The position numbers and the translations under genes are program-made. The notes below the pieces were generated by a model. It did no database searches. It was given only the letters and a program-made list of their open reading frames with translations, and was not told the DNA's origin. From an uncultured Gemmatimonadales bacterium (GTDB lineage Bacteria > Gemmatimonadota > Gemmatimonadetes > JACCXV01 > JAHWKZ01): 64,000 nt of DNA. Where the stretch lies: assembly GCA_947259315.1 (NCBI GenBank), contig CAMYLR010000024.1, positions 29,709 through 93,708 on the forward strand, read 5' to 3'. Within the stretch, counting starts at the first letter, position 1, and every line of letters begins with the position of its first letter. Below are positions 16,044 to 63,082 of this stretch, piece after piece.

Positions 16044-16049
16044 TAGCTT
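16044..16049 (+). promoter_or_regulatory. -10 element of ispH, leaderless type
   Basis: TAGCTT at 16044-16049 ends nine bases before the ispH ATG, with no ribosome site between. The same hexamer precedes pyk, gltA and hrcA. The -35 region (16020-16026) is poor. Confidence 0.5.
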
Positions 16050-16058
16050 TCGCCAATC

Positions 16059-17273
16059 ATGACCGAATTGATTGGTGAAGAGCAGCTCTATTATCGCAAG
16101 GGGTTTGGCCTCAAGCAGGAAGTGGCGGGCGACCTGGCCCATGCCTACCACTCCGATCTGGTCGAACGAATCGTCGCGGCAGGCCATCGCTTGGATGTCG
16201 AGGGCATGACGATTCGCTTGGCGCAGGAGTTCGGCAACTGTTACGGCGTGGACCGGGCGGTTCAATACGCGTACGAGACGCGGCAGCGATTTCCGGACCG
16301 GCGCTTGTTCCTGACCGGCGAGCTGATTCACAACCCGCACGTCAACAAAGAGATGTTGGCTAACGGAATCGGGTTCCTCACCGGCAGCTATGCCGAAGAT
16401 GTGTCGTACGAAGATCTGACCGAAGAAGACGTCGTCCTGCTACCAGCGTTTGGTGCGCCTACTGACGTCATGCGCAAGCTCCGAGACATCGGGTGTGTTC
16501 TCGTAGACACCACCTGTGGGTCGGTGCTACTCGTCTGGAAAACCGTTGAGCGGTTCGCGCAGGACGGTTACACGGCGATTATTCACGGCAAGTACTACCA
16601 CGAAGAGACGCAGGCGACAGCCTCGCGGGCGTTGGAGTACGCCGATGGGGCGTACTTGGTGGTTCGCGATCTCGAAGAAGCCGGATTGGTGACCGACTTC
16701 GTTCGTCATGGGGGCGATGCGACCGCGCTCCGGGAACGATTCGTGAACGCCACCAGCCCGGGGTTCGATTTTGAGGTTGACCTCGAGCGCGTTGGCATCG
16801 CCAACCAGACGACGATGCTGATGCGCGAGACCGAGGCCGTCGCCGAGATGTTCCGGTCGGCGATGATCGACAGTTACGGCGAAGCCGACCTCGATGATCA
16901 TTATCGGGCGCTTGACACCATTTGTTCCGCGACCCAAGAACGCCAGGACGCGGTCGAGGAGCTGCTTCTCACCCCACCCCAGCTGATGATTGTCCTGGGG
17001 GGCTATAACTCAAGTAATACCAACAACTTAACAGAGATCTGCCAAGCCGTTGTACCGACCTATCACATCGATGACTCGTCGTGCATCGAGGGACCGAACT
17101 CGATCCGGCACAAACCGGTTGACCAGGACGAGGAGACACGCACCGAAGAGTGGCTCCCACCGGGTCCGATCGAGATCGGGATGACCGCGGGTGCGTCGAC
17201 CCCAAACAACAAGGTTGGCGAAACGATCGAACGTCTGTTGGCCTGCCGCGGCCAAACGATGCCCGTAAGCTAG
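16059..17273 (+). CDS. ispH: 4-hydroxy-3-methylbut-2-enyl diphosphate reductase, long form
   Basis: Iron-sulfur enzyme for the last step of the MEP isoprenoid pathway. At 404 residues it is of the long type known from cyanobacteria and plastids, rather than the ~315-residue enterobacterial type. Candidate cluster cysteines are C61 (NCYGV), about C153 (TTCGS) and about C328 (LTEIC). Other signatures are LIHNPHVN, GYNSSNTNNL and SCIEGPNSI, ending in TAGASTPNNKV. The ATG is nine bases after a TAGCTT -10 box, with no Shine-Dalgarno. Confidence 0.93.
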   Translation: MTELIGEEQLYYRKGFGLKQEVAGDLAHAYHSDLVERIVAAGHRLDVEGMTIRLAQEFGNCYGVDRAVQYAYETRQRFPDRRLFLTGELIHNPHVNKEMLANGIGFLTGSYAEDVSYEDLTEEDVVLLPAFGAPTDVMRKLRDIGCVLVDTTCGSVLLVWKTVERFAQDGYTAIIHGKYYHEETQATASRALEYADGAYLVVRDLEEAGLVTDFVRHGGDATALRERFVNATSPGFDFEVDLERVGIANQTTMLMRETEAVAEMFRSAMIDSYGEADLDDHYRALDTICSATQERQDAVEELLLTPPQLMIVLGGYNSSNTNNLTEICQAVVPTYHIDDSSCIEGPNSIRHKPVDQDEETRTEEWLPPGPIEIGMTAGASTPNNKVGETIERLLACRGQTMPVS

Positions 17274-17288
17274 ATCGATGCCAAAGTC

Positions 17289-18302
17289 GTGATCGGTTCG
17301 CTCATGCACCAGCTCGAACGACGCTTGGCGGCGCGCGATACGGAGCGACGACCGTACGACTTCGATTGGGGGTTGGAGCACCTCGATCCGTCGCCCCCGC
17401 CCGCGCGCGATCCGGCCAGGGCTCTTTTCCAGTGGGCGCGTGACGTCGTCGAAGCCCCCGCTCGTTTTTACGTCGACCCCGGTGCACCGCCGTTCGTCGA
17501 GGAGTGCGGCGATGATCGAGTTCGCTTTCCGAGCGCGGTGCGTATGCCGCACGCGAGCGCCAACTGGGCGTCACTGCGGCTGTTCACGAGCCAGCAGCCG
17601 ACACAGCGCGCAATGCTCGTCTTGCCGCAATGGAATGCCGACGCTGAGAGCCATGTCGGGTTGTGCCGGATGTTGGCCGAACGTGGGATCACGGCGGCTC
17701 GGCTGACGTTGCCGTACCACGAGGAGCGGAGTCCGCACGATAGCATTCGAGCCGATATGGCGGTCAGTGCCAACATCGGTCGCACGTTGCGAGTGAGCCA
17801 GCAAGCGGTCAGTGATGTTCGACGCGCGCGGGCATGGCTCGAACAGCGCGGCCACGATCGGATCGGCATCGTCGGTACCAGCCTGGGGTCGTGCATCGGC
17901 TTCTTAGCGCTGGCGCAGGAGCCTGCGTTCAAGGTCGGCGTCTTGCACCACGTCTCGAGCTACTTCGGGGATGTCGTATGGCGCGGGATCTCGACTCGAC
18001 ATGTGAGGGCCGAACTGCAGGCCCATTGCTCGCAGGCCGCCGTGCGCCGTTTCTGGGCGCCGATCAGCCCCATCCATTTCGTGGGTCAGGTCACTAAACA
18101 GACCCACACGCTGCTCCTCACCGGTCGCTACGATCTCACGTTTCCGTACGATCTATCGCAGCGCTTCCACCGCGCTTTCCGACAATACGGATTGCCACAC
18201 CAAGTTGTCGTGGTGCCGTGGGGGCACTACACGAGCGGCGTGTTCCCGTTCAACGCGATTACCGTGCGTCGCGTTCTACGCTACTTGGATCAGTATTTGT
18301 AA
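17289..18302 (+). CDS. Alpha/beta hydrolase family protein
   Basis: 337-residue hydrolase. The nucleophile elbow is VGTSLGS near residue 198-204, the acid is probably the Asp of TGRYDLTFP near 280, and the histidine is in PWGHYTSG near 313. The first 80 residues lack a signal peptide and are charged, so a cytoplasmic location is likely. It resembles the family 18 / DUF2048-like hydrolases; I cannot name a substrate. GTG 17289 is used; an ATG five codons later (17304) is an alternative. It follows ispH by 15 bases and probably shares its transcript. A GC-rich hairpin ends the unit. Confidence 0.75.
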   Translation: MIGSLMHQLERRLAARDTERRPYDFDWGLEHLDPSPPPARDPARALFQWARDVVEAPARFYVDPGAPPFVEECGDDRVRFPSAVRMPHASANWASLRLFTSQQPTQRAMLVLPQWNADAESHVGLCRMLAERGITAARLTLPYHEERSPHDSIRADMAVSANIGRTLRVSQQAVSDVRRARAWLEQRGHDRIGIVGTSLGSCIGFLALAQEPAFKVGVLHHVSSYFGDVVWRGISTRHVRAELQAHCSQAAVRRFWAPISPIHFVGQVTKQTHTLLLTGRYDLTFPYDLSQRFHRAFRQYGLPHQVVVVPWGHYTSGVFPFNAITVRRVLRYLDQYL

Positions 18303-18313
18303 GTCGGGCTCGG

Positions 18314-18338
18314 GACGCCGGCTCGCGACCGGCGTCCG
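18314..18338. terminator. Hairpin between convergent genes
   Basis: A perfect nine-pair GC-rich stem (18314-18322 with 18330-18338), seven-base loop, in the 42-base gap between the hydrolase (+) and the small gene (-). There is no T-tract on either strand, but the placement suits a shared terminator. Confidence 0.5.
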
Positions 18339-18344
18339 CGGGAA

Positions 18345-18551
18345 CTACAGCAGTTTGGCCGCGTAGCCGGGCTCGAAGGGATAGACGAGCTCGTCGGCGG
18401 GAAGTTGTCTCACGCTTTCGTTCTCGACATGCCTGACAGATGTGTCGTCGACCTTTGCGTACACCTGGCTGACGATCGTCCGCTCTTGGATCTCGCTCGC
18501 CAGCATGAGCGTATCTCCTGTTTCCATATCGCGCAGCGTTTTTGGTTCCAT
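18345..18551 (-). CDS. Small protein of unknown function, 68 residues
   Basis: I do not recognise this protein. It is acidic, with no membrane segment, and begins MEPKTLRDMETGDTLMLASE; there is no cysteine. The case for a real gene is good: an AGGGGGG ribosome site about ten bases before the ATG, a promoter (TTGTCC, 17 bases, TAGTTT) about 55 bases upstream, GC-ending codon choice like its neighbours, and a hairpin just after the stop. It stands alone, convergent to the hydrolase and divergent from tRNA-Sec. Confidence 0.6.
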   Translation of the reverse strand: MEPKTLRDMETGDTLMLASEIQERTIVSQVYAKVDDTSVRHVENESVRQLPADELVYPFEPGYAAKLL

Positions 18552-18605
18552 CGTGTCTGCATCCCCCCTGTTCGATTCTGTTCAAAGCACAATCGACGTG
18601 GGGCG

Positions 18606-18634
18606 AAACTAGCCCCGTGGTATGAGTTGGACAA
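18606..18634 (-). promoter_or_regulatory. Promoter of the 68-residue protein gene
   Basis: On the minus strand TTGTCC (18629-18634), a 17-base spacer and TAGTTT (18606-18611). The -10 lies in the loop of a GGGGC/GCCCC hairpin. Predicted start about 18599. Confidence 0.55.
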
Positions 18635-18638
18635 CCGG

Positions 18639-18666
18639 TTGCTGATGATCGACCGGCTCGTACCTT
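18639..18666 (+). promoter_or_regulatory. Possible promoter of tRNA-Sec
   Basis: TTGCTG (18639-18644), a 16-base spacer and TACCTT (18661-18666). The same -10 hexamer precedes tRNA-Ala. The start would fall about 38 bases before the tRNA. Confidence 0.4.
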
Positions 18667-18711
18667 AACCATCGAGCGTTGCGATGGACCGGGCTCGCAT
18701 TGGTCGTACTG

Positions 18712-18810
18712 GGGAGCGGATGGGGTCTGGTGGCCCCTGCGGTCTTCAAAACCGTTATCGGGCGCGCGTGCCGCGTCCGAGGTGGGTTCGATTCCCACAC
18801 GTTCCCGCCA
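18712..18810 (+). tRNA. selC: tRNA-Sec (anticodon UCA)
   Basis: Selenocysteine tRNA. The anticodon loop CTTCAAA (UCA, which reads UGA) closes on CGGT/ACCG. A long variable arm (about 18757-18780) and a GGGG/CCCC D-stem are typical of tRNA-Sec. The T-arm is GTGGG-TTCGATT-CCCAC, the acceptor stem GGGAGCG/CGTTCCC, with discriminator G and encoded CCA. At 99 bases it is longer than any canonical tRNA except Ser/Leu/Sec types. No selA, selB, selD or selenoprotein gene is visible in the window. Confidence 0.93.
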
Positions 18811-18865
18811 TCGTCAGCAGTCGGGGTTGCTCGCGGGTCCCGGAACAGATGGTATTGGTCTCGGG

Positions 18866-18894
18866 TTGTACCCTGAACTGTGGTTTCCGATCTT
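18866..18894 (+). promoter_or_regulatory. Promoter of the DUF5683 gene
   Basis: TTGTAC (18866-18871), a 17-base spacer and GATCTT (18889-18894). The start near 18901 would give a leader of about 29 bases containing the GGGGAAG ribosome site. Confidence 0.5.
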
Positions 18895-18929
18895 GCAAGC
18901 GTCCCATCACGACCGCTGAGCGGGGAAGA

Positions 18930-19637
18930 ATGATTTCGAGTGCAAGCACTAGGCGTTGGTTGATCGCGACGACGGGTCTGCTGGCAGTCATGGCAGCGAG
19001 ATCGGCGACCGCACAAGAGATTCGACCGTCCGAACCGGTTCCGATCGACTCGATGGACTTCGTTGCCGCTCCGGTGGATACGATCCCGTTGCTTGCACCG
19101 CGGTTCCGCGAAGCCGGGGGACCCGAAGAGCTATCTGCGGTCCCGAGCGTGGACGCGCTTCCGAAAAATCCTCGCAACGCGGCGATCCGGGCCTTCCTTC
19201 TACCGGGCTGGGGCCAGGTTTACGCTGGGCACCCGTGGCGGGCGGTGTTGTTTGCCAGCGCGGAAATTGGGTTCTTTGCGCTTGGCTATTCAAAGCAGCG
19301 TGAAGCGCTCGACCGGAAGTCCGACCTGCGGGAGGCGCGTGAGGAGTTCTTCGCTACCGCACCCGACAGTCTGCTCGCTGACTCGTTAGCGGCTGAAGAG
19401 GCTTTTGAGGTGACGCCCGAGGCGGTTGCGATCCGAGGTGACATTGACGAGATCGAGGAGCGGCGTGAGGACTTCTACGCGTACTTCGCGGCCAGCGTCA
19501 TCTTTGCGGCGGTTGACGCGTACGTTTCCGCACAACTCGACCCGGTTACGCTCGATCTCGACCCGGCAACGGGGCGGATTCGCGCCGGTGTCGAGTTTCC
19601 GATCGGTCGCCGACGAAGTACGAGTGGGAAGCGGTGA
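18930..19637 (+). CDS. Secreted DUF5683-domain protein
   Basis: 235 residues from ATG 18930, with GGGGAAG just before it. A signal peptide (basic ends, hydrophobic core LIATTGLLAVMAA, cleavage near SATAQ) opens the protein. The DUF5683 signature is AAIRAFLLPGWGQVYAGHPWRAVLF, followed by further membrane helices near 105-125 and 185-205 around an acidic, helical middle. DUF5683 proteins are common in Bacteroidota and relatives; their role is unknown to me. The longer open frame that runs through tRNA-Sec is rejected. The stop overlaps the GTG of murI. Confidence 0.78.
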   Translation: MISSASTRRWLIATTGLLAVMAARSATAQEIRPSEPVPIDSMDFVAAPVDTIPLLAPRFREAGGPEELSAVPSVDALPKNPRNAAIRAFLLPGWGQVYAGHPWRAVLFASAEIGFFALGYSKQREALDRKSDLREAREEFFATAPDSLLADSLAAEEAFEVTPEAVAIRGDIDEIEERREDFYAYFAASVIFAAVDAYVSAQLDPVTLDLDPATGRIRAGVEFPIGRRRSTSGKR

Positions 19638-20443
19638 GCGGTAACGATCGCCCAATCGGGGTGTTCGACTCCGGTATCGGCGGTCTCACCGTGATGCACG
19701 CGTTGATGACGCGTCTGCCACACGAGTCCTTGGTGTACTTCGGTGATACCGCGCGCGTACCGTACGGCCCAAAGTCACCGGCCACCGTCAGCCGATTTGC
19801 ATTCGAAAACGTTGATCTGTTGACAACGTGTGACGTCAAGGCCGTCGTCGTCGCATGCAACACCGCCACGGCGCACGCGCTGGGCCCGCTTCGCGAGCGC
19901 TTCGAACTGCCCATTGTCGGTGTGATCGGGCCTGGCGCGCGAGCCGCGGAGAGGAAAACTGCGAGCCGGCGCGTGGGCGTCATCGGCACTCACGGCACGG
20001 TCGGAAGTGGAGCCTATCAGAAGGCACTTCAGACCATAAACGGAGATCTCGTCGTCGTGGCGCGAGCGTGCCCACTGTTTGTCCCGTTAGCGGAAGAGGG
20101 GATGACCGATCACCCAGCGGCTCGACTGATTGCGACCGACTATCTAGCTCCGTTCAAGGACGACGGGATCGATACGCTGATTCTCGGTTGCACGCACTAC
20201 CCGTTGCTCAAGGCGGTGATCGCCGCGACGGTCGGGGAAGGCGTAACGCTGATCGATTCGGCCGACGAGACCGCCAGCGAGGTGGCTGCCCTGCTCGCTG
20301 AGCGCGAGCTCGCGCGCGCGGCGGGGGAACCTGCGTACCGTTTCCTGGTGAGCGATCTGCCCGACCAGTTCCTCAAGATCGGGCAGCGATTCTTGGGCCG
20401 CGAGATCGGCGCCGTCGAGGTCGTCTCCGCCGGCGCCGTCTAA
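19634..20443 (+). CDS. murI: Glutamate racemase
   Basis: Makes D-glutamate for peptidoglycan. 269 residues. The start [13 protein letters not shown] is diagnostic. The two catalytic cysteines are C75 in VACNTATA and about C186 in [19 protein letters not shown] and an ASGVPRR-like VGVIGTHGT stretch are also present. GTG 19634 overlaps the DUF5683 stop by four bases, so the two are coupled, although no functional link is obvious. Confidence 0.94.
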
Positions 20444-20467
20444 AGCTGCCGCACTCGTCAGAAGTCT

Positions 20468-20473
20468 CATATT
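20468..20473 (+). promoter_or_regulatory. Possible -10 element of cheR, leaderless type
   Basis: CATATT ends eight bases before the GTG at 20482; a CTGCCG at 20446-20451 sits 16 bases upstream. The spacing matches the leaderless promoters elsewhere in the window, but both boxes are imperfect. Confidence 0.35.
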
Positions 20474-20481
20474 CCCTCTTC

Positions 20482-21297
20482 GTGAAAGACACTGAATGCG
20501 TCAATCTCCTTCAGTGGGCGCTGCCGAGGCTGAAGCTGCGCTGGCCGGGCTATCGCAAAGTCCGGCGCCAGGTGTGCAAGCGTATCGGGCGCCGACTGCG
20601 AACTCTCGAGCTCGACGACATCGACGCCTACCGAGCCTACCTCGCGACTCACCCCGACGAGTGGGGCGAGCTCGACGCGATGTGCCGGATTACGATCTCT
20701 CGGTTCCATCGCGACCGCGGCGTCTTCGACCTCATCCGTGGGGAACTGCTTCCCGAGCTCGCGCGGAATGCGATCGACCGTGGCGATACTGCGCTGCGCT
20801 GCTGGTCGGTCGGTTGTGGCTCTGGTGAGGAAGCGTACTCGCTTGCGATCCTCTGGGTGCGTGAGGGTCAGCACGACTTTCCGGCGATCGATTTCCAGAT
20901 AACAGCATCGGATGTCGAGCCCCACATGCTCAAACGAGCGCGAAGCGGCTGCTACTCGCGCAGTTCGCTCGCCGAGCTTCCAAACGATTTGATCGAGGAT
21001 GCGTTTGACGCGTCAGATGACGAGTACCGCATCCACGACCCTTATCGCGATGGGATCGAATGGGTGCAGCAGGACGTCCGCCACGCAATGCCGACTGGGC
21101 TGTTCGATCTCGTTCTCTGCCGCAACCTCGTCTTTACGTATTTTGTCGAACCGCTGCAGCGCGAGTGCCTGACGCGGATCGCTGACCGGTTGTTCCCGAA
21201 CGGTTTCCTCGTCCTTGGCAAGCACGAGACGCTGCCAGAAGGCGCGGAGGGTTTCATTGCGCACGATGAGCACAACCGGGTCTACCAAAAGGCGTAG
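20482..21297 (+). CDS. CheR-type methyltransferase, orphan
   Basis: 271-residue S-adenosylmethionine-dependent methyltransferase of the CheR family. An N-terminal helical domain (about 1-75) precedes the catalytic domain with [15 protein letters not shown] near 110-124 and [12 protein letters not shown] near 212-223. CheR methylates glutamates on chemoreceptors, but no che, mcp or flagellar gene is nearby, and NLVFTYF replaces the more usual NVxIYF. A different protein substrate is possible. Start GTG 20482, no ribosome site. Confidence 0.75.
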
Positions 21298-21300
21298 TGG

Positions 21301-21387
21301 ATGGTCCAGATGCACCCGGGGAAGTCCGCCACTCTGTTGATCGGTTTGTCTATAGTCGTCACGTTGGCGTTCCGAACCCGCCGCTGA
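21301..21387 (+). CDS. Possible 28-residue membrane peptide
   Basis: ATG at 21301, three bases after the cheR stop, opens a 28-codon frame with one hydrophobic stretch (ATLLIGLSIVVTLAF) flanked by basic residues. It would be coupled to cheR. It has no ribosome site of its own and could be chance; evidence from conservation is lacking. Confidence 0.2.
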   Translation: MVQMHPGKSATLLIGLSIVVTLAFRTRR

Positions 21388-21393
21388 ACAGAG

Positions 21394-21408
21394 CCCGCCT
21401 ATCGCGGG
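21394..21408. terminator. Weak hairpin between cheR and lpxH
   Basis: CCCGC (21394-21398) pairs with GCGGG (21404-21408) around a five-base loop in the convergent gap. Short, without a T-tract. Confidence 0.25.
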
Positions 21409-21448
21409 TCGTCCGCCTGGGTCGTCAAACGTCGTCTCGATGAGTCGA

Positions 21449-22189
21449 TCAGTTAAACTTTTCGAGCGTCAACTTTCCGCCTTCGAGTCGACCGTAAGTG
21501 CGGTGCTCGATCCAATCACCGAGATTGAGATAGATCCCGTCGTCGGTAGTCAAGAGCTCCGGGCGGTGGACATGGCCCGCGACGACGACATCGTATCGGT
21601 CGCTGGACAACACTGCACGCGCAGCGGATCGGAGTCGATCTTCGTGGATGACCTGTGCTTCGGGCCGATGTGAGCGACGGCTCAGGGCGCTCATGCGCGC
21701 CGCTAGCCAGTGTCCGATTCGGGGTCCCAGGAGCCGAAAGCCGAAGATCGCCGCCGGATGGTGTAGCACCGCGCGAACGACGCGGTATGTTCCGCGCGTG
21801 CCACCCAGCGCGTCGCCGTGGCATAACAGAAGCCGCATTCCTTCGACGACGAGCGTGTGGGGGTCGTCGATCAGCTCGAGCCCGACGATCGTTTCGAGGT
21901 ATCCCGGGTGGCGAGCGGTGCGGGCCCAGTAATCGTGGTTTCCGCCCATAAAGGCGATACTCGCTCCGCGGTCAGTCGCCGCGGCGAGCGCCGCGAGTAC
22001 GGGGCCGTGATTGGCCGGGGGCGGGGTGCCGAAATCGAACCAGAAATCGAAGACATCACCCAGCAGGTACAATCGATCACCGTGGCGCAGTTGATCGATA
22101 AACGCCACCAGGTCCTGTCTCTTTTGCGACTCGATCGACTCGTCGTCGCCGCCGAGGTGGGCATCGGAGAGGAAGTAGATGACCGACAT
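21449..22189 (-). CDS. lpxH: UDP-2,3-diacylglucosamine diphosphatase, LpxH-like
   Basis: Metallophosphoesterase of 246 residues. It begins SVIYFLSDAHLGG (DxH motif at about 8-10), then LLGDVFDFWFDF, MGGNHDYW, LLLCHGDALG and AGHVHRPE, the ordered metal ligands of LpxH, which removes UMP to make lipid X in lipid A synthesis. The C-terminus NLGDWIEHRTYGRL is also LpxH-like. I use ATG 22189, which is eight bases after a TAAGTT -10 box on this strand; the open frame extends 33 codons further but lacks conservation. Divergent from ftsY. It implies a Gram-negative envelope. Confidence 0.85.
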   Translation of the reverse strand: MSVIYFLSDAHLGGDDESIESQKRQDLVAFIDQLRHGDRLYLLGDVFDFWFDFGTPPPANHGPVLAALAAATDRGASIAFMGGNHDYWARTARHPGYLETIVGLELIDDPHTLVVEGMRLLLCHGDALGGTRGTYRVVRAVLHHPAAIFGFRLLGPRIGHWLAARMSALSRRSHRPEAQVIHEDRLRSAARAVLSSDRYDVVVAGHVHRPELLTTDDGIYLNLGDWIEHRTYGRLEGGKLTLEKFN

Positions 22190-22197
22190 CGGACCGC

Positions 22198-22203
22198 AAC
22201 TTA
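22198..22203 (-). promoter_or_regulatory. -10 element of lpxH, leaderless type
   Basis: Minus-strand TAAGTT (22198-22203) ends eight bases before the ATG. The -35 position (22221-22226) is poor and lies at the ftsY start. Confidence 0.45.
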
Positions 22204-22222
22204 GCAATCGCGTGGGCGGGCC

Positions 22223-23158
22223 GTGAGCCAGCAGCTCGATCGTTCCGATAGCGATCGTGAGTTCGGACCGCGGCGCGGCCTGTGGCAACGGATCAAAGAC
22301 GTCGCCCTGATGGACGTCGCAGTGCTCGTCAAGGGCGTCGACGACGCCGCGCTCGAGCAGTTCGAGGAGCGGCTGTTGGGCGCTGACTTTGGGGTCTCGG
22401 CGACGCTCTATCTGGTGGATGAGCTCAACACTGAGTCAAGAAAGGGAAAGCTGAGGAGCGCGGAAGATTTTCGAGCGTTTCTCGCGGCTCGCGTCGAACA
22501 ACTGTTGGCTACCGAGCGCGATCGGCATCTAGCGGTTGCTGCCAGCCCACCCACCGTCGTGTTGCTGGTTGGCGTCAACGGGGTTGGCAAGACGACCACC
22601 GCCGCTCGGCTGGCACGCAGGCTTCAGGCGGCGGGTGAGAGCGTGCTGTTGGTGGCCGCCGACACGTTTCGCGCTGGTGCTATCGAGCAGGTGGAAGCGT
22701 GGGGCACGAAGCTCGACGTGCCGGTTGTTTCGGGTGCGGCCGGCGGTGACCCGGCGGCGGTGGTATTTGACGCGATCGAAGCGGCGTCGAGTCGCAAGCT
22801 GTCGCACGTGATAGCCGACACCGCTGGACGGCTCCACACCCAGGGAGACTTGATGGCCGAACTCGAGAAGGTCGTCAGGGTTGCGGCATCCCGTATCGAC
22901 GACGCGCCACACGAGGTGCTGTTGTGTCTCGACGCCACCACTGGCCAGAACGCGGTCGCTCAGGCGAGGGTGTTTGGAAGCCGGCTGCCCGTCACTGGGC
23001 TTGTGGTGTGCAAGCTGGATGGCACCGCGCGCGGTGGCGTAGTGGTGGCGGTCCAGCGCGATCTCGGGGTGCCGATCAAGTTTGTAGGTCTCGGCGAGGG
23101 GCCTGATGATCTCATCCCGTTTGACCCGCATCGCTTCGCTGAAGGGTTAATCAGCTGA
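22223..23158 (+). CDS. ftsY: SRP receptor GTPase FtsY
   Basis: 311 residues. NG-domain only, without the long acidic A-domain of enterobacteria. The helical N domain spans about 20-95; the G domain has G1 GVNGVGKTTTAARLA near 113-127, the DTFRAGAIEQ segment, G3 DTAGRLHTQG near 203-212, and G4 CKLDGTARGGV. It binds the Ffh-ffs particle whose RNA is at 6051. GTG start at 22223. The TGA overlaps the apparent CTG start of recG. Confidence 0.94.
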   Translation: MSQQLDRSDSDREFGPRRGLWQRIKDVALMDVAVLVKGVDDAALEQFEERLLGADFGVSATLYLVDELNTESRKGKLRSAEDFRAFLAARVEQLLATERDRHLAVAASPPTVVLLVGVNGVGKTTTAARLARRLQAAGESVLLVAADTFRAGAIEQVEAWGTKLDVPVVSGAAGGDPAAVVFDAIEAASSRKLSHVIADTAGRLHTQGDLMAELEKVVRVAASRIDDAPHEVLLCLDATTGQNAVAQARVFGSRLPVTGLVVCKLDGTARGGVVVAVQRDLGVPIKFVGLGEGPDDLIPFDPHRFAEGLIS

Positions 23159-25240: not shown

Positions 25241-25270
25241 TTGACCGATTTGCAATCCGTCGGCTAGTTT
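25241..25270 (+). promoter_or_regulatory. Promoter of manC, leaderless type
   Basis: TTGACC (25241-25246), an 18-base spacer and TAGTTT (25265-25270). The start falls at about 25277-25278, at the GTG itself. Confidence 0.65.
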
Positions 25271-28168: not shown

Positions 28169-28198
28169 TTGCTGCTCACCTCCAACAATCGCTAAATT
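28169..28198 (+). promoter_or_regulatory. Promoter of the sugar-nucleotide dehydratase gene
   Basis: TTGCTG (28169-28174), an 18-base spacer and TAAATT (28193-28198). The start near 28205-28206 falls just before an in-frame GTG at 28207. Confidence 0.55.
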
Positions 28199-35493: not shown

Positions 35494-35522
35494 CTGCCAG
35501 CCGCGGTGGGGGCCTGTATCTT
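35494..35522 (+). promoter_or_regulatory. Promoter of gatCAB, leaderless type
   Basis: CTGCCA (35494-35499), a 17-base spacer and TATCTT (35517-35522), ending ten bases before the gatC ATG with no ribosome site. Confidence 0.5.
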
Positions 35523-40548: not shown

Positions 40549-40558
40549 GCAGCTGATC

Positions 40559-40564
40559 AATATA
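40559..40564 (-). promoter_or_regulatory. -10 element of the DUF948-like gene, leaderless type
   Basis: Minus-strand TATATT ends ten bases before ATG 40548. The -35 is not obvious. The divergent clpB promoter lies 24-52 bases away. Confidence 0.45.
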
Positions 40565-40587
40565 CAAGGTCGATGCCAAAATCGCGC

Positions 40588-40616
40588 ATGACCCGGCTCC
40601 TCGTTCTTCGTATTTT
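40588..40616 (+). promoter_or_regulatory. Promoter of clpB, leaderless type
   Basis: ATGACC (40588-40593), a 17-base spacer and TATTTT (40611-40616), ending nine bases before the ATG. No CIRCE inverted repeat is present. Confidence 0.5.
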
Positions 40617-40625
40617 TCCCGCCTC

Positions 40626-47985: not shown

Positions 47986-48014
47986 TTGAGTATAAACCAG
48001 GCGGCCGCAATATT
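47986..48014 (+). promoter_or_regulatory. Promoter of tmk, leaderless type
   Basis: TTGAGT (47986-47991), a 17-base spacer and AATATT (48009-48014), ending seven bases before the GTG at 48022. It therefore occupies the alternative TTG start. Confidence 0.5.
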
Positions 48015-50838: not shown

Positions 50839-51720
50839 CTAGTGGTAGGGCTCCAGGCGTCGCGATCGCGACGTGTGGCGCAGACGCTCGATCGCGCGTT
50901 CCTTGATCTGCCGGATCCGCTCACGGGAGAGATTGAAGATCGAACCGATCTCGCGGAGCGTGAGCGGCTCGTTACCGTCTAGCCCGTAATAGAGCTTGAC
51001 GATCTTCGCTTCCCGCGGCTGTAGCGAGCCCAGCGTTTCCCGGATCTCCTTCTCCCGGGCGCTCTCGAAGGTCTGCTCTTCGGGATCCATCGTCTCGTCA
51101 TCCGAGAGATAGCTGAAGAGCGTCTTCTCCTCGCCCTCGAACAGCGGGGCGTCGAGCGATAGCGAACGACGCGAGACGTTCATCAACTTCCGTACCTCGT
51201 CGACGTCCATGTCCATCGCCTCGGCCACTTCCTCGGGCTTGGGCTCCCGGCCGAGCTTCTGCGTCAGCTCGGCTTCCTTCTTGGAGATCTTGTTGAGCGT
51301 CGTCGCCCGATTGATCGGCAGCCGGAACGTCTTCGAGTTCTCGGCCAACGCTTTCAAGATCGCCTGCCGGATCCACCACACGGCGTACGAGATGAACTTT
51401 ACGCCCTTGGTTTCATCGAACTTCTGTGCCGCCCGCACCAGACCGACGTTGCCCTCGCAGATCAGGTCGGGCAGGCTCATGCCCAGATTCTGGTATTTCT
51501 TGGCTACTGAAACCACGAAACGGAGGTTGGATCGGACGAGTTTCTCGAGCGCCAACTGGTCGCCGTCGCGGATACGCCGCGCGAGCTCCGCCTCCTCCGC
51601 CCGCGTCAGCAGCGGGTGGTTCTTGATGTCCTCCAGATAGAGCGCCAAGGCCCCTTCGTCGACCTTGTCGGCGCTCGCTCCGAGAGACATGCTGGTGGTC
51701 TTTCTGCGCTTATTTGCCAT
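50839..51720 (-). CDS. rpoD: Primary-type sigma-70 factor, short (RpoD/SigA family)
   Basis: 293 residues. Region 1.2 (ALALYLEDIKNHPLLTRAEE), region 2 (LRFVVSVAKKYQNLGMSLPDLICEG, and KFISYAVWWIRQAI for -10 melting), region 3, and region 4 with LTLREIGSIFNLSRERIRQIKERA. Region 1.1 and the large non-conserved insert of Escherichia coli RpoD are absent, as in the primary factors of Bacteroidota and relatives. A perfect-consensus promoter drives it. Whether it is the only housekeeping factor cannot be told here; a group 2 role is the alternative. Confidence 0.88.
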   Translation of the reverse strand: MANKRRKTTSMSLGASADKVDEGALALYLEDIKNHPLLTRAEEAELARRIRDGDQLALEKLVRSNLRFVVSVAKKYQNLGMSLPDLICEGNVGLVRAAQKFDETKGVKFISYAVWWIRQAILKALAENSKTFRLPINRATTLNKISKKEAELTQKLGREPKPEEVAEAMDMDVDEVRKLMNVSRRSLSLDAPLFEGEEKTLFSYLSDDETMDPEEQTFESAREKEIRETLGSLQPREAKIVKLYYGLDGNEPLTLREIGSIFNLSRERIRQIKERAIERLRHTSRSRRLEPYH

Positions 51721-51850: not shown

Positions 51851-51879
51851 TTGACTAGGCCTCGGACCGGACGTAGGAT
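51851..51879 (+). promoter_or_regulatory. Promoter of the 51890 gene, near-leaderless
   Basis: TTGACT (51851-51856), a 17-base spacer and TAGGAT (51874-51879), ending ten bases before the ATG. The leader would be three or four bases. Confidence 0.65.
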
Positions 51880-51889: not shown

Positions 51890-52597
51890 ATGAGCGACAA
51901 AGGTTTGTGCCTCCTGCTGGCGATGCTGATCAGCCTGATCTTCGTCCCCCAGATTCACGGCCAGGAACCCGAAGATCGGCCCGGTTTTCGCCTTCAGTAC
52001 CTCGACGTCGAACCCTATCGGGACCAGAAGATCCTGCTGCGCGACTGGCCTGCCCTCTCGCGCCTGGTCGCCTGGTCCGCGGCGCTCGAGGAGAGCGTGG
52101 CCCAGGAAGCAGACACGCTGTCGACCGAGATGTTCGAGGAGTTCCGAGTCCGTGCCGACTCGTTGGCTGCCCAGCCCTTGCCGCCCTTCTTCTCCGGGGA
52201 GGCGGCTGACAGCGTCCGAGCGACGCTGGAGGAGCTCCTCGCGATCCTCGGCGAGGCCGATTCGCTATTGGGCGAGGCTCCCGAGACGCCCGAGAGAGTG
52301 GTCGGTGAACAACTCAACACGCCGTCCGAGGAGCGGACGCTGGTTACCGGCAATACCGCGGTCACCGTTCCAGCCGGGGTGGCCGTTGGTGAGGCGGACT
52401 CGCTACCACGTGCCGAGCTAGGACCTGAGGAGTTGAACTTCGTCGATCGATTGACGCTGGCGCTGACCGCGGTCGATCGGCTGGTCCACCTGACGCGAGC
52501 GGCCGGCGGTGATCAAACCGGGGAGGCTAACCGGGAACCCACTGCTGAAGAGTCCAGCTCGCCAACAGATAGAGCACCACCCCCGCCAGAACCGTAA
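51890..52597 (+). CDS. Secreted acidic protein of unknown function
   Basis: 235 residues. A signal peptide (LCLLLAMLISLIFVPQIHGQ) is followed by an acidic, helical, alanine/leucine/glutamate-rich region and a proline-rich end (SPTDRAPPPPEP). I do not recognise a family. ATG 51890 is chosen because a good promoter ends ten bases before it and the signal peptide starts there; the frame extends 13 codons up, through the promoter. Its last 71 bases overlap the convergent ZIP transporter gene. Confidence 0.65.
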   Translation: MSDKGLCLLLAMLISLIFVPQIHGQEPEDRPGFRLQYLDVEPYRDQKILLRDWPALSRLVAWSAALEESVAQEADTLSTEMFEEFRVRADSLAAQPLPPFFSGEAADSVRATLEELLAILGEADSLLGEAPETPERVVGEQLNTPSEERTLVTGNTAVTVPAGVAVGEADSLPRAELGPEELNFVDRLTLALTAVDRLVHLTRAAGGDQTGEANREPTAEESSSPTDRAPPPPEP

Positions 52598-54088: not shown

Positions 54089-54135
54089 GAGCGACGTCTG
54101 GAGCAGTGCTAGGGTCCCGCGAGCTCCGGAATGCG

Positions 54136-54762
54136 TTATCGCACCCAACCTCGGTACTCGAGCAGTACCCTCCCCCGCGGGAGCGAGTCGGGTGGTTTCC
54201 GCTCGACGGTCACCAATAGCGCAGCCCAGCCAACCAGGAAGGAGTCGCTAGGCAAGCCGGCGAGAACCCGACCATCGAGCGCGTTCCCGAGATCGGCCAG
54301 CGGGTGGAACCCAAGGTCGTTCTCGAGCCAGAACGCGTACGTCGAATCACCGCTCAGCGACGCCAAACCGGCGGCGGTAATGACCGCCCGGCCCTGACTC
54401 GCGATCAATCGTCCGCGGGCCGGCTCTTGACCAAACAGCGGTACCTCGTGACGGTCGGGTGCGGCCAGGACCGTCAGCAGCTCATCCGTCTTGGCGGCCA
54501 CGGTCAGCAGCGAGTCTCGAACCACCAGCTGGGCAGCGAGCGAATCGGCGCGCGCGTCGGCCGCCGCACCGACCGCAGCCAGCTCGGTAACGCGTTGGTT
54601 CTCGCGGACCGCGAAGGCGATCGCCGCCAGCGCCACCAGTCCGGCCCCAGCGGCTGCCCACTTCCACCTGCGCGCGTGGGCGCGATCGGAAGACGGGGCC
54701 GTAACCGCCGCCAACGCGCGGCGCTCGGCCGACCCGGTTTGGGCTTGCGGGATCACAGCCAC
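54136..54762 (-). CDS. RskA-like anti-sigma C-terminal domain protein
   Basis: 208 residues. A cytoplasmic N-terminus of about 32 residues, one membrane helix (WAAAGAGLVALAAIAFAV) near 34-52, a coiled coil, and a periplasmic RskA-type domain (VPLFGQEPARGRLIASQGRAVI, YAFWLENDLGFHPLADLG). The N-terminal sigma-binding zinc domain of real anti-sigma factors is missing, and no ECF sigma gene is near. It starts GTG. It lies between tRNA-Ala and tRNA-Leu on the same strand. Confidence 0.72.
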   Translation of the reverse strand: MAVIPQAQTGSAERRALAAVTAPSSDRAHARRWKWAAAGAGLVALAAIAFAVRENQRVTELAAVGAAADARADSLAAQLVVRDSLLTVAAKTDELLTVLAAPDRHEVPLFGQEPARGRLIASQGRAVITAAGLASLSGDSTYAFWLENDLGFHPLADLGNALDGRVLAGLPSDSFLVGWAALLVTVERKPPDSLPRGRVLLEYRGWVR

Positions 54763-54814
54763 GTCTCGCGAGCGTCGATGGTCAGCGTTGTGTCAATGAG
54801 TAGAGAGGGGATGT

Positions 54815-54890
54815 TGGTGGAGCTGATCGGGATCGAACCGACGACCTCCTGAATGCCATTCAGGCGCTCTCCCAGCTGAGCTACAGCCCC
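54815..54890 (-). tRNA. tRNA-Ala (anticodon GGC)
   Basis: Acceptor GGGGCTG/CAGCTCC, D-arm GCTCAGCTGGGAGAGC, anticodon loop ATGGCAT (GGC, reading GCC) on CCTGA/TCAGG, T-arm with GTTCGATCC, discriminator A, CCA encoded at 54815-54817. Confidence 0.96.
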
Positions 54891-54904
54891 AAAAATCGAA
54901 ATCC

Positions 54905-54934
54905 AAGGTAGATCGCGAGCCTCTGGATCGTCAA
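54905..54934 (-). promoter_or_regulatory. Promoter of tRNA-Ala
   Basis: On the minus strand TTGACG (54929-54934), an 18-base spacer and TACCTT (54905-54910). Start near 54897. It overlaps the divergent pyk promoter. Confidence 0.65.
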
Positions 54935-54951
54935 CCCGATTCGGATAGCTT
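54923..54951 (+). promoter_or_regulatory. Promoter of pyk, leaderless type
   Basis: CTGGAT (54923-54928), a 17-base spacer and TAGCTT (54946-54951), ending seven bases before ATG 54959. Confidence 0.5.
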
Positions 54952-54958
54952 CGTGGCG

Positions 54959-56419: not shown

Positions 56420-56426
56420 GGCCCGT

Positions 56427-56455
56427 TTGACGGCTCTAGAACCCTCGGATAGCTT
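56427..56455 (+). promoter_or_regulatory. Promoter of gltA, leaderless type
   Basis: TTGACG (56427-56432), a 17-base spacer and TAGCTT (56450-56455), ending eight bases before the ATG. The best example of the class. Confidence 0.7.
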
Positions 56456-56463
56456 CGCTTTTC

Positions 56464-57606
56464 ATGGCTGATATCGCTGCAGCAAAGAAGCCGATCGCCG
56501 GTTTACAGGGCGTCGTGGTCGCCGACTCCGAGATCTCATATGTCGACGGGCAGGCCGGAAAACTCGTCTATCGCGGCTATTCGATCGAGGATCTGGCTGC
56601 GAACTCGACGTTCGAAGAGACGACAAAGCTCTTGCTTGACGGCGCGCTTCCCAGCCGGTCCGAGTTGGACCAGTTTGAGGCCGAACTGAGTGGGGCCAGG
56701 GTTCTAGATAGCGAGATCATCGACCTGATTCGCGCCTACCCGACGGACGCCCAACCGATGGCGGTGCTGAGAACGGCTGTTTCCGCGCTCGGGTTGTTCG
56801 ATCCCGACAGCGAAGACATCGGACCCGATGCAACGCGCCGCAAGGCGATTCGGTTGGTGGCCAAGTTCCCCGTCATCGTGGCCGCGTTCGAGCGCCATCG
56901 GAATGGCCACGATCCGATTGACCCGCGTGATGACTTGGCTCATGCGGCGAACTTCCTCTACATGCTTACCGGTTCCGATCCCGATCCCGAAGACGCTCGC
57001 GTCATGGACGTGTGTCTCATTCTGCACGCCGAGCACGGGATGAACGCCTCGACGTTTTCGGCTCGGGTGACCGCAGCCACGCTCTCGGACATCCACTCGG
57101 CGGTAACATCCGCGATCGGGACACTCAAGGGGGCGTTGCACGGCGGCGCGAATCAAGAAGTGATGAAGATGCTTCTCGAAATCGATCAACGCGGGATCGA
57201 GCCGGCCGATTTCGTGCGGGCGATGCTGGATCGCAAAGAGCGAGTGATGGGCTTTGGGCATCGCGTATACAAAACAATGGACCCGCGGGCACCGATACTG
57301 AGGCGATTCTCTCGGGACCTGACCGCCCGCGCTGGACAGCAAAAATGGTTCACGATAAGCGAGCAAATCCTGGAGACGATGGCGGCCGAAAAGGGGATCG
57401 ATCCAAACGTAGACTTCTTCTCAGCTTCCACGTACCACGCGCTGGGGATTCCGGCCGATCTTTTTACGCCGATTTTCGCGATCTCTCGCGTCAGCGGCTG
57501 GTCTACTCATGTCGAGGCTCAATACCGACACAACCGGCTGATACGACCGCGCGCGAACTACGTTGGACCGCGAGATCTGACGTACGTCCCGATCGAAAAG
57601 CGGTAG
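56464..57606 (+). CDS. gltA: Citrate synthase
   Basis: 380 residues, the compact type found in Gram-positives and archaea. It begins KKPIAGLQGVVVADSEISYVDGQAGKLVYRGYSI; catalytic histidines are in LHAEHGMNASTF near 190 and GFGHRVYKTMDPRA near 260-273, with the aspartate in PNVDFFSA near 317. No ribosome site precedes the ATG; transcription should start one or two bases before it. icd follows 90 bases on, so two TCA-cycle steps are adjacent. Confidence 0.96.
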   Translation: MADIAAAKKPIAGLQGVVVADSEISYVDGQAGKLVYRGYSIEDLAANSTFEETTKLLLDGALPSRSELDQFEAELSGARVLDSEIIDLIRAYPTDAQPMAVLRTAVSALGLFDPDSEDIGPDATRRKAIRLVAKFPVIVAAFERHRNGHDPIDPRDDLAHAANFLYMLTGSDPDPEDARVMDVCLILHAEHGMNASTFSARVTAATLSDIHSAVTSAIGTLKGALHGGANQEVMKMLLEIDQRGIEPADFVRAMLDRKERVMGFGHRVYKTMDPRAPILRRFSRDLTARAGQQKWFTISEQILETMAAEKGIDPNVDFFSASTYHALGIPADLFTPIFAISRVSGWSTHVEAQYRHNRLIRPRANYVGPRDLTYVPIEKR

Positions 57607-57695
57607 TCTCCGGTCAGTCCCGAAAATCCATCCACCGTTTCCGCGGTGAACCTTGTGCTAAGCTCAAATCTTGCGTGCGTGAAAGGAGCAAGTAG

Positions 57696-58931
57696 ATGAC
57701 ATACGAACGTTTGACGCCCCCTTCGGGTGGCGAGATCATAGGCTACGACGGGGCGTTTCGGGTAACGACCCCGGACCGGCCGATTATCCCGTTTATCGAG
57801 GGTGATGGGATCGGACCCGACATCTGGGCCGCCGCGCGTCAGGTTTTTGACGCCGCGGTCAAATCGGCATACGGCACGGAGCGATCGGTGTGTTGGTTCG
57901 AGATCTTCGCCGGTGACAAGGCGGTGGCGGAGTATGGCGACGGGTTGGTCCTGCCCGACGACACGCTGCAAGCGATTCGCGATTATCGCGTCGCGATCAA
58001 GGGCCCGCTGACAACACCTGTCGGTGGCGGCATTCGGTCACTCAACGTCACCCTGAGGCAACGGCTCGATCTGTATTGCTGTGTCCGACCCGCACGATAC
58101 TACGCCGGTACGCCGTCTCCGATGCGCGAACCGCACAAGCTCGATGTCGTCGTGTTTCGCGAGAACACCGAGGATGTGTATGCCGGCATCGAGTGGGAGG
58201 TCGGCAGCCCAGAACAGCAGCGCGTGCGCGAGTTCCTAAACGGCGAGATGGGGACGGAGATCCCGACCGACGCGGGTATCGGGGTAAAGCCGATCAGCGA
58301 GCGCAATACCAAGCGGCTGGTTGCCGCAGCGATTCGCTATGCGCTGGACAAGAAGCGGGCCTCGGTGACGCTGGTTCACAAAGGCAACATCATGAAGTTC
58401 ACCGAAGGGGCGTTTCGGCGATGGGGCTACGAGGTGGCAGCCCAAGAGTTTGGCGATCGGACCGTGACCGAGGCCGACCTGAAAGGAGATCGCGGCGATC
58501 GCATGATCATGAAGGATCGAATCGCCGACGCGATGTTCCAGCAACTGTTGCTGCGGCCCGACGAATACGACGTGATCGCGCTGCCGAACCTGAATGGCGA
58601 TTACCTGTCAGACGCGGCGGCCGCCCAGGTCGGCGGTCTGGGGATGGCGCCTGGAGCCAACATCGGAGACACGGGGGCGGTGTTCGAAGCGACCCACGGC
58701 TCAGCGCCCAAGTACACCGGGCTCGACAAGGTCAATCCCGCGAGTCTCATCCTGTCGGGGGCGTTCATGTTCGATTTCCTGGGATGGGGTGAGGTCAAGT
58801 CGAAGATCGAGCACGGCCTCGAGGCGGCGATCGGTGACAAGGTGGTGACCTACGATTTGGCTCGTCAGATGGAGGGTGCCACCGAGGTCAAGTGCTCAGA
58901 GTTCGCGACCGCGATTATTGACCGCATGTAG
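57696..58931 (+). CDS. icd: Isocitrate dehydrogenase (NADP-type)
   Basis: 411 residues. [14 protein letters not shown] at 29-42, the substrate serine region [17 protein letters not shown] near 110-125, [14 protein letters not shown] near 153-166, [15 protein letters not shown] near 225-240, and the nucleotide segment [17 protein letters not shown] near 325. Unlike gltA it has a leader with a strong AAAGGAG, and a TAAGCT box (57659-57664) might be its -10, giving about 25 bases of leader. Confidence 0.95.
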
Positions 58932-58938
58932 AAAGTGA

Positions 58939-60850
<1,912 letters not shown>

Positions 60851-60854
60851 TCAG

Positions 60855-61700
60855 GTGCGCCGTCCTCTCCACGTGTACGTCCACGTCCCTTTTTGCGCCC
60901 GCAAGTGTCCCTACTGTCATTTCTACAACCTCCGCCACGATGCCGGCCGCGAAGCACTCTTCGTCGACGCCTTGGCGCGCGAGATCGACACGTCACGTCG
61001 ACAGAGCGCGCTCGAGGGTGTCGAGCTGGCGACGCTCTACTGGGGCGGCGGCACGCCGTCGATTCTATCCGAGGCCGGATTCTCGAGGTTGGCCGATTTG
61101 TGTCTCGACATAGGACCGATGGCGCACGAGTTCGAGTGGACGATCGAGCTAAACCCGGCGGACGCCGAAGCCGGCAAGCTGTCTGACTACCGGGCCCGTG
61201 GCGTCAACCGCCTCTCGATCGGAGCGCAGTCCTTCGATGTCGAACGGCTGACGTTTCTCGAGCGGGGCCACTCTGGTGCAGAATCGCGGCGGGCCGTGTT
61301 GGCCGCGGTTCAGGCGGGGTTCGACGACATCTCGATAGATCTGATGTTCAACCTCGCGGTGTCTGGGCGCCGGAGATCGTGGGTAACCGATCTGGGGTCG
61401 GCGTTTGATCTGCCGATCACCCATCTCTCCTTGTATGGGCTCACCATCGAGTCGGGTACCCCGTTCGGGGTTCGTGACCGCGCCGGTCCTCGACGACGAC
61501 GGCCGTACGGATCACGTCATCGAGGGCGCGAGCGAGCTGCACGTGACGTTCGACGACGAGACCAGAGTTCCCGCGAGCGTGGTCGGCTTCGATCCGGCCT
61601 ACTGGTCGGGTCGTCCCTACCTCGGCTTGGGTCCTTCGGCGCACTCGTTCGATGGCCAGCGACGCTGGGCCAACGCGTCTTCGCTGACGAAGTGGGCTGA
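60855..61700 (+). CDS. hemW: HemW-like radical SAM protein, N-terminal part (frame broken)
   Basis: Heme chaperone of the coproporphyrinogen-oxidase-like family. GTG 60855, four bases after dprA. The radical SAM cluster motif CARKCPYC is at about 14-21; YWGGGTPSIL, NPADAEAGKL, and GVNRLSIGAQSF follow. After GLTIESGTPFG (to about 61470) the frame turns to arginine-rich nonsense and ends at 61700. The rest of the protein is in the +1 frame. Removing one G from the GGGG run at 61467-61470 restores a 383-residue HemW, the expected length. It may be a mutation or an assembly error. Confidence 0.75.
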   Translation: MRRPLHVYVHVPFCARKCPYCHFYNLRHDAGREALFVDALAREIDTSRRQSALEGVELATLYWGGGTPSILSEAGFSRLADLCLDIGPMAHEFEWTIELNPADAEAGKLSDYRARGVNRLSIGAQSFDVERLTFLERGHSGAESRRAVLAAVQAGFDDISIDLMFNLAVSGRRRSWVTDLGSAFDLPITHLSLYGLTIESGTPFGVRDRAGPRRRRPYGSRHRGRERAARDVRRRDQSSRERGRLRSGLLVGSSLPRLGSFGALVRWPATLGQRVFADEVG

Positions 61701-62007
61701 GGCGTTCGCGATCGGCGCTGACCCGCGCGCATTCGTGGAGAGATTGGATCCGTCTCAGCGCGCGCTTGAGACCTTGTACCTCGGATTGCGCACCGCGGAC
61801 GGCGTCGGGGTCGATCACCCGCTGCTCGGCTCGATAAACGTCAAGCCAGTGGTAGCAGAGCTGGTCGCCGAGGGTCTGTGCCGGCTCTCAGCAGATCGGT
61901 TGGCATGCACCGAGCGGGGGTTTCTGGTGTACGACGCGATACTCGACCGGCTGGTTGGCATCGCTCGTCCTCCTGAATCGACGCCGGCCGCCACCACGGT
62001 GAATTGA
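61474..62007 (+). CDS. hemW: HemW-like protein, C-terminal part (frame broken)
   Basis: Continuation of hemW in the +1 frame. It opens APVLDDDGRTDHVIEGASEL, then AYWSGRPYLGLGPSAHSFDGQRRWAN, a conserved HemW segment, and ends with the winged-helix-like C-terminus (LVAEGLCRLSADRLACTERGFLVYDAIL). GTG 61474 is only the first start-like codon; independent translation is doubtful because it lacks a ribosome site. The stop lies inside the -35 box of hrcA. Confidence 0.7.
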   Translation: MTAPVLDDDGRTDHVIEGASELHVTFDDETRVPASVVGFDPAYWSGRPYLGLGPSAHSFDGQRRWANASSLTKWAEAFAIGADPRAFVERLDPSQRALETLYLGLRTADGVGVDHPLLGSINVKPVVAELVAEGLCRLSADRLACTERGFLVYDAILDRLVGIARPPESTPAATTVN

Positions 62008-62032
62008 TATGGCTCTCAACGGCAGGTAGCTT
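62004..62032 (+). promoter_or_regulatory. Promoter of hrcA, leaderless type
   Basis: TTGATA (62004-62009), a 17-base spacer and TAGCTT (62027-62032), ending nine bases before the ATG. No CIRCE repeat is found between 61981 and 62041. Confidence 0.65.
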
Positions 62033-62041
62033 TTAAGCGTC

Positions 62042-63082
62042 ATGCACACGGACGAACAGGAACTGACACTCCGCGAGCGGCGGGTTCTCGAGGCTGTCAT
62101 TCACACCTTTGTGGATACCGCCGCCCCGGCTGCGTCTCGCGCGGTAGCGCTGGATTTCAATCTCGGCGTCAGCCCGGCTACGATTCGCAACACCATGAGC
62201 GATCTGGCACGCAAGGGGTACCTAACCCAGACCCACCCAAGCGCTGGACGTACTCCAACCGATAAGGCGTATCGCTACTACGTCGACACGCTGATGAAGA
62301 TCCAACAGCTCTCCGCTGACGAGGTGGCGCAGGTTCAGGCGACGGTCGCTGAGACGAATGCCGAGCAGGAGTTGCTCTCGCGTGCGGTGTTAGCGCTTTC
62401 GGTTCTATCTCACGAGCTCGGACTGGGGCTCGGCCCACAGATTGGCGGTGGAGTGCTCGAGCGTATCGAGCTGGTCGGGCTTTCGAGCGAACGAATGCTC
62501 ATCGTGCTCGCTGTCGACTCGGGACCGGTAAGAACGATCTACGTCGAAGCTCCGCGACCGGTGACCGACGACGTTCTTTCGTCGTTGGCACAGTTCCTCA
62601 ACGAACGCTTGGCGGGCCGAAAGCTACAAGAGATCCGCGAAACCTATCGCGATCGATTGTCGGATGGCCCCAGCGAGCATGCTGATCTGCTGAACATCTT
62701 TCTCGAACAGGCCGATACCGCGTTTGCTACCGAGCCATCGATCGAAAGCGTGGTGCTTGGTCCTGCGTCGAGCCTCGCCGATCAGCCGGAGTTTGCCGAT
62801 CGCGAAGGTCTGCGCACGCTGATCGAGCTGACCGAGCAGAAAGAGCTGCTGGCGCGGGCGCTCGAAAAACGTCGCGCCGAAGGGATCGTCATCTCGATCG
62901 GTGGCGAGCACGCTCAAGAGCCGCTGCTCGACTTCAGCTTGGTCACCACGCAGTACGAGATGGCTGGGGTGCGAGGCACGATCGGCGTCATAGGGCCGAC
63001 TAGGATGCCATACGAGCGCGTCGTCGCGCTGGTCGAATACACTGCCAGACTCCTCTCGTCGCTTCCTGACCGGAGCGCCTAG
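62042..63082 (+). CDS. hrcA: Heat-inducible transcription repressor HrcA
   Basis: 346 residues. The N-terminal winged helix (about 5-75: LTLRERRVLEAVIHTFVDTA, SPATIRNTMSDLARKGYLTQTHPSAGRTPTDKAYR) binds CIRCE operators in other bacteria. The inserted and GAF-like domains follow, with SIGGEH near 283 and VTTQYEMAGVRGTIGVIGPTRMPY near 300-323. dnaJ follows 15 bases on, without grpE or dnaK between. No CIRCE site lies in front of this gene or clpB, so its operator must be elsewhere. Confidence 0.94.
   Translation: MHTDEQELTLRERRVLEAVIHTFVDTAAPAASRAVALDFNLGVSPATIRNTMSDLARKGYLTQTHPSAGRTPTDKAYRYYVDTLMKIQQLSADEVAQVQATVAETNAEQELLSRAVLALSVLSHELGLGLGPQIGGGVLERIELVGLSSERMLIVLAVDSGPVRTIYVEAPRPVTDDVLSSLAQFLNERLAGRKLQEIRETYRDRLSDGPSEHADLLNIFLEQADTAFATEPSIESVVLGPASSLADQPEFADREGLRTLIELTEQKELLARALEKRRAEGIVISIGGEHAQEPLLDFSLVTTQYEMAGVRGTIGVIGPTRMPYERVVALVEYTARLLSSLPDRSA

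Follow-up and report, generated by a model that had tools for sequence, protein, structure and literature searches.

The stretch of DNA analyzed here, referred to as the window, comprises 64,000 nt of contig CAMYLR010000024.1 (positions 29,709 to 93,708, forward strand) in the GenBank assembly GCA_947259315.1 of an uncultured Gemmatimonadales bacterium. An earlier note, made from the letters alone, pointed out hexamers resembling the -10 box of bacterial promoters 7–10 nt before the start codons of 13 genes in the window, and suggested that this genome starts the first genes of many operons from leaderless mRNAs. All 13 hexamers and start codons were located on the strands of their own genes, with gaps of 7–10 nt, the gap being the number of nucleotides between the end of the hexamer and the start codon (Table 1). 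The pattern TANNNT is followed by 11 of them, the exceptions being cheR and tmk. The gene names were confirmed by Pfam matches to LytB/IspH, CheR, a calcineurin-type phosphoesterase (lpxH-like), a ManC-type nucleotidyltransferase, a GDP-mannose dehydratase/epimerase (the SDR gene), GatC, ClpB, thymidylate kinase, pyruvate kinase, citrate synthase, and HrcA. The DUF948 match fell under the curated Pfam cut-off, and no Pfam family matched the gene that starts at 51890 (the 51890 gene).

Table 1. Candidate -10 boxes and -35 sequences before 13 start codons of the window
Gene	Positions	Strand	-35 sequence (match)	Spacer (bp)	-10 hexamer	Start codon	Gap (nt)	Remark
ispH	16044..16049	+			TAGCTT	ATG 16059	9	Without convincing -35
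cheR	20468..20473	+			CATATT	GTG 20482	8	Weakly supported; CANNNT without genome-wide excess
Metallophosphoesterase, lpxH-like	22198..22203	-	weak (3/6)		TAAGTT	ATG 22189	8	
manC	25241..25270	+	TTGACC (25241-25246)	18	TAGTTT (25265-25270)	GTG 25278	7	Promoter
SDR, GDP-mannose dehydratase-like	28193..28198	+	weak (3/6)		TAAATT	GTG 28207	8	
gatC	35494..35522	+	CTGCCA, -35-like (4/6)	17	TATCTT (35517-35522)	ATG 35533	10	Promoter
DUF948-like gene	40559..40564	-	none		TATATT	ATG 40548	10	
clpB	40588..40616	+	ATGACC, -35-like (4/6)	17	TATTTT (40611-40616)	ATG 40626	9	Promoter
tmk	48009..48014	+	TTGAGT, -35-like		AATATT	GTG 48022	7	Weakly supported; AANNNT without genome-wide excess
51890 gene	51851..51879	+	TTGACT (5/6)	17	TAGGAT (51874-51879)	ATG 51890	10	Promoter
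pyk	54946..54951	+	weak (3/6)		TAGCTT	ATG 54959	7	
gltA	56427..56455	+	TTGACG (5/6)	17	TAGCTT (56450-56455)	ATG 56464	8	Promoter
hrcA	62004..62032	+	TTGATA (5/6)	17	TAGCTT (62027-62032)	ATG 62042	9	Promoter

When the window sites were scored against the -35 consensus TTGACA at spacings of 15–19 bp, at least four of the six positions matched at seven sites, rather than at the nine for which a -35 box had been claimed. The same level is reached by 14% of random window positions. A 5/6 match occurs at manC, the 51890 gene, gltA, and hrcA, and within this search no -35 worth naming was found at ispH and the DUF948-like gene. The absence of a Shine-Dalgarno (SD) site, claimed for all 13 genes, holds in general, except that the -10 box of the 51890 gene itself includes AGGA. 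That all of the genes come first in their operons is not plain for five of them, namely, cheR, manC, the SDR gene, tmk, and gltA. These begin 39–55 nt past a same-strand gene, and for this reason, co-transcription from upstream is possible. The stop codon of an upstream gene was also considered as the source of TAG in the boxes and was ruled out, since all 13 boxes lie clear of the end of the preceding gene. The DUF948-like gene and clpB are divergent and 77 bp apart (window 40549-40625), with a -10 box beside each start and the -35 positions back to back.

The pattern extends well beyond the window. In a sample of 1.157 Mb from the 2.40-Mb, 33-contig assembly, genes and their starts were predicted with a coding-potential model that is blind to upstream signals, and divergent, co-directional first, and internal genes were compared. 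TANNNT at a gap of 6–10 nt precedes 44 of 181 divergent genes, whereas the rate at upstream positions predicts 6.7 (Poisson p 1.2e-21). Among internal genes, it was found in 16/387 (5.6 expected), so the comparison of first and internal genes proposed in the earlier note gives 24% for divergent genes, 14% for all first genes, and 4% for internal genes (divergent vs. internal, Fisher p 3e-12). The peak falls at gaps of 6–9 nt, and TANNNT ranks first among the scanned three-letter patterns in a six-base box (52 vs. 11.9 in first genes). The types of hexamer found at cheR and tmk show no excess at gaps of 6–10 nt (CANNNT, 15 vs. 20.2 expected; AANNNT, 7 vs. 14.8). For this reason, these two genes are the least secure entries of the list. 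With chance subtracted, the -10-adjacent, putatively leaderless share amounts to roughly 20% or more of divergent genes and about 10% of all first genes.

The genes that carry the box have further features in common. A -35 match of at least 4/6 lies 16–18 bp upstream in 38% of the candidates and at 6% of control positions (p 5e-10). An SD site was found in only 3 of 60 box-bearing genes, compared with 115 of 368 other first genes (Fisher p 4e-6), and 54 of the 60 start with ATG (p 1e-4). The impression that the boxes resemble TAGCTT was borne out, as this is the commonest single variant (7/60, 11.7%), whereas it makes up 1.6% of the TANNNT occurrences in the sample overall. T stands at position 5 in 55% of candidate boxes and in 14% of all TANNNT (p 2e-13); at promoters with a good -35 away from starts, it is T in 29% of 38 cases, so this last contrast rests on small numbers. 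The 16S 3' end reads GGATCACCTCCTTT, in which the anti-SD is intact, and internal genes are preceded by an excess of SD-like 4-mers. The retention of CCTCC together with this signal indicates that leadered and leaderless genes coexist. Sigma-70 group factors with region 1.2 are encoded at three loci of the genome; one such factor lies in the window (50842-51720, minus strand) and spans regions 1.2 to 4.

The arrangement is also conserved among relatives. In hrcA orthologues of the same genus and of other families of the class, TANNNT is kept 6–10 nt before the ATG while the intervening bases differ (L145, L146, L148, L150, L151, L155, L157, L159, L167, and L172), and in at least six of them (L146, L150, L155, L157, L159, and L172) a TTGACA-like -35 stands 17–18 bp further up. 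The -10/ATG architecture of clpB is kept in G001, of the same genus, and G002, of the same family. Elsewhere in the class, clpB mostly has an SD-like leader. Being apparently leaderless in the window's family and SD-led elsewhere, clpB indicates that genes switch mode.

The families of the class (f1 to f10, f1 being that of the window) were compared in small 200-kb samples. A strong signal was obtained in f7 (9/38 divergent genes vs. 0.9 expected) and a moderate one in f5 (12/91 first genes vs. 3.5), and in samples of this size the signal was not significant in f3, f6, f8, and f9. Gene calling is poor in the GC-richest relatives, and in G010 the gene finder seems to call the wrong strand, so the negatives in the very GC-rich f6 and f8 are weak. 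Whole-genome counts of TTGAC-N17/19-TANNNT-ATG at gaps of 6–9 nt were set against those at gaps of 26–29 nt for the first 161 of 295 genomes, transcribed by hand. There are 15 per genome at the near gap and 2 at the far one in f1, a ratio of 7.5; the ratio is 2.8–3.4 in f2, f4, f5, f6, f7, and f10 and 1.6–2.2 in f3, f8, and f9. These ratios indicate that the style is widespread in the class but uneven, peaking in the window's family. Many f5 genomes (e.g., G047:C55:83313-83352) have in common a promoter with a near-constant spacer, TTGACGCAAGTCCCACAAGGGTTTAGCTTCGCT..ATG, and this conserved spacer may contain an operator.

The same pipeline was run on control replicons, with divergent genes scored. 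As positive controls, plasmid MP1 of D. radiodurans, a species with experimental proof of -10-adjacent expression (PMC12340547), gave 8/30 (1.1 expected), a rate close to that of the window's genome, and pTT27 of T. thermophilus gave 5/32 (0.9 expected). There was no excess in the GC-matched Sinorhizobium pSymB (2/46 vs. 1.4 expected) or in the pooled haloarchaea (3/90 vs. 2.9 expected). In 200 kb of Gemmatirosa plasmid 2, the excess was modest (6/70 first genes vs. 1.0 expected, p 6e-4).

It is very probable that promoters of the sigma-70 type abut the start codons of these genes and direct leaderless transcription; the motif, its fixed distance to in-frame starts, the associated -35 box, the depletion of SD sites, and the conserved spacing at hrcA are seen in the sequence and support the promoter well, and from them the 5' end of the transcript and its translation are predicted. 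At sigma-70 promoters, a gap of 6 nt makes the transcription start (+1) coincide with the first nucleotide of the start codon, and gaps of 7–10 nt place it 1–4 nt earlier. An ordinary housekeeping promoter of this type would thus position RNA polymerase at the start codon or just before it, and the resulting mRNA would have no space for an SD site. With no leader to hold one, initiation would have to be of the leaderless type, with ribosomes engaging the 5'-terminal AUG or GUG directly. Two modes would operate in one genome, -10-adjacent leaderless genes and SD genes. The suggestion that many genes start on leaderless mRNAs is therefore supported by the enrichment, the lack of SD sites, and the -35 boxes, and it is at the level of the transcript 5' end that it stays a prediction.

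Several points weigh against this explanation. The signal is weak in co-directional first genes (16/247, 6.5%, vs. 8.0 expected), and the starts depend on a home-made coding-potential finder. Some window sites have a gap of 10 nt and two do not conform to TANNNT, and at any single gene, a second promoter further upstream is possible. Part of the TANNNT count in internal genes probably comes from stop codons: the sampled genome has a strong excess of TAG some 12–15 nt ahead of internal starts (32 vs. 4.0 expected), which is probably the stop codon of the upstream gene and perhaps overlaps an SD site.

A more far-reaching version would make these promoters a sub-class of their own, in which a leaderless TANNTT (TAGCTT) -10 box is distinct from the leadered -10 box, and the box, the start site, and the 5'-AUG are co-tuned. 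The uneven family spread, strong in f1 and f7 but faint or lacking in the samples of f3, f6, f8, and f9, would then reflect gains or losses of a genome-wide style. This version is doubtful, though conceivable. It is improbable that the start codons are mis-assigned and that the boxes serve leadered transcripts whose true starts lie downstream, behind a short leader. Such an arrangement is suggested by the hrcA genes of G023 and G029 (L152 and L171), in which a longer stretch separates the -10 box from the alignment-favoured start, and by the SD-like leader of clpB already described. However, the peak is tied to in-frame starts derived from coding potential alone (a box is carried by 14.4% of in-frame ATGs near the start and 2–4% of off-frame ATGs), the candidates lack SD sites and prefer ATG, and a distance of 6–10 nt leaves +1 on or just ahead of the codon. 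For non-SD genes, low-structure and U-rich sequence ahead of the start is a recognized alternative (PMC5397173), and the boxes might accordingly be read as A+T-rich, unstructured, or S1-binding sequence before starts, with no promoter involved. This is very unlikely: the enrichment is limited to TANNNT, with permuted motifs and single-letter variants lacking it, and the -35 box at 16–18 bp and the contrast of first and internal genes point to transcription. Chance combined with a post-hoc selection of starts in the earlier note, to which the non-consensus boxes of cheR and tmk and the permuted motifs found before some start codon within ±60 nt of the start in about 9% of first genes would lend themselves, is the least credible account and is refuted for the class overall, with TANNNT at 25% in the same test, other distances at about 8%, and a motif-blind genome enrichment that persists without the window genes (42/173 divergent genes); chance may still explain individual sites, e.g., cheR, tmk, and gatC.

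Leaderless transcription from -10-adjacent promoters is of a kind already known. Zheng et al. 2011 (PMC3160421) described genes led by TANNNT (TA-led genes) across many bacteria, with the main occurrences in Actinobacteria, Deinococcus-Thermus, Aquificae, and Acidobacteria; the group table of that survey does not name Gemmatimonadota. The TA-led genes resemble those of the window's genome in having TANNNT about 12 bp before the start, a high GC content, and coexisting SD genes. The middle three bases carry little information in both, except that T is favoured here at position 5, which differs from that account. In Deinococcus-Thermus, Zhong et al. 2025 (PMC12340547) showed that a -10 motif beside open reading frames functions as a promoter. 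The box is similarly close to the reading frame there (6–7 bp), with SD-type genes alongside, whereas the commonest variant in Deinococcus is TACACT and not TAGCTT, and the peak found here is broader (6–10). Mycobacterium tuberculosis, in which 22–26% of genes are leaderless (Cortes et al. 2013, PMC3898074), likewise uses a TANNNT -10; no -35 consensus was detected in that study, in contrast to the enriched TTGAC-like -35 reported here. A further related system is the leaderless bacterial group of GeneMarkS-2 (Lomsadze 2018, as cited in StartLink, PMC9581028). The FCB clade is described there as having AT-rich non-canonical ribosome-binding sites, whereas the window's lineage, apparently FCB-affiliated, uses -10-adjacent starts. 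Gemmatimonads are mentioned for their anti-SD type in PMC10783764. Among the papers searched, no report of -10-adjacent leaderless expression was found for the lineage, although the supplementary tables of the surveys may list a Gemmatimonadota genome. What is new is the lineage and the uneven spread among families, and perhaps the TANNTT flavour.

These results extend -10-adjacent leaderless expression to a further lineage. A style that differs between families of one class suggests that gain, loss, and gene-by-gene switching, as in clpB, can be compared. In addition, gene callers that expect SD sites may misplace starts in such genomes.

The class is probably Gemmatimonadota. In an RpoB tree, it stands apart from Acidobacteria, Chloroflexi, and Latescibacterota, beside a branch with KSB1 and Latescibacterota, and a protein of G010, a class member, has its best match among plasmids in Gemmatirosa kalamazoonensis (45% identity, the next being 36%). 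The window's assembly yielded no rpoB, few relatives yielded a 16S sequence, and the comparison of ClpB with plasmids gave no taxonomic signal. Two metagenome-assembled genomes (MAGs) labelled Gemmatimonadetes (L115 and L132) group with Latescibacterota in the tree; their labels are doubtful and were not used. The label of L128 (Acidimicrobiia), which groups with Acidobacteria, is likewise doubtful. An insertion splits RpoB domain 6 in most class members (G008, G010, G011, G013, G027, and G039; L246-L251), with open frames of 1413–1848 aa, and G005, of the window's order, has an RpoB of 1284 aa without this split.

Three minor observations concern individual genes. A near-perfect CIRCE-like element, TTAGCACTGATGGTGTGAGAGTGCTAA, lies at G000:C16:7888 (L019), on a contig that also carries groEL, and none was found beside hrcA. 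The tRNA-Sec called by ARAGORN at 18712-18810 lies inside the reading frame 18684-19637 and is probably a false positive. The citrate synthase encoded by gltA (window 56464-57606) is closest to proteins of Acidobacteria MAGs, Chloroflexi, and haloarchaea, with up to 58% identity, which suggests that the gene was laterally transferred.

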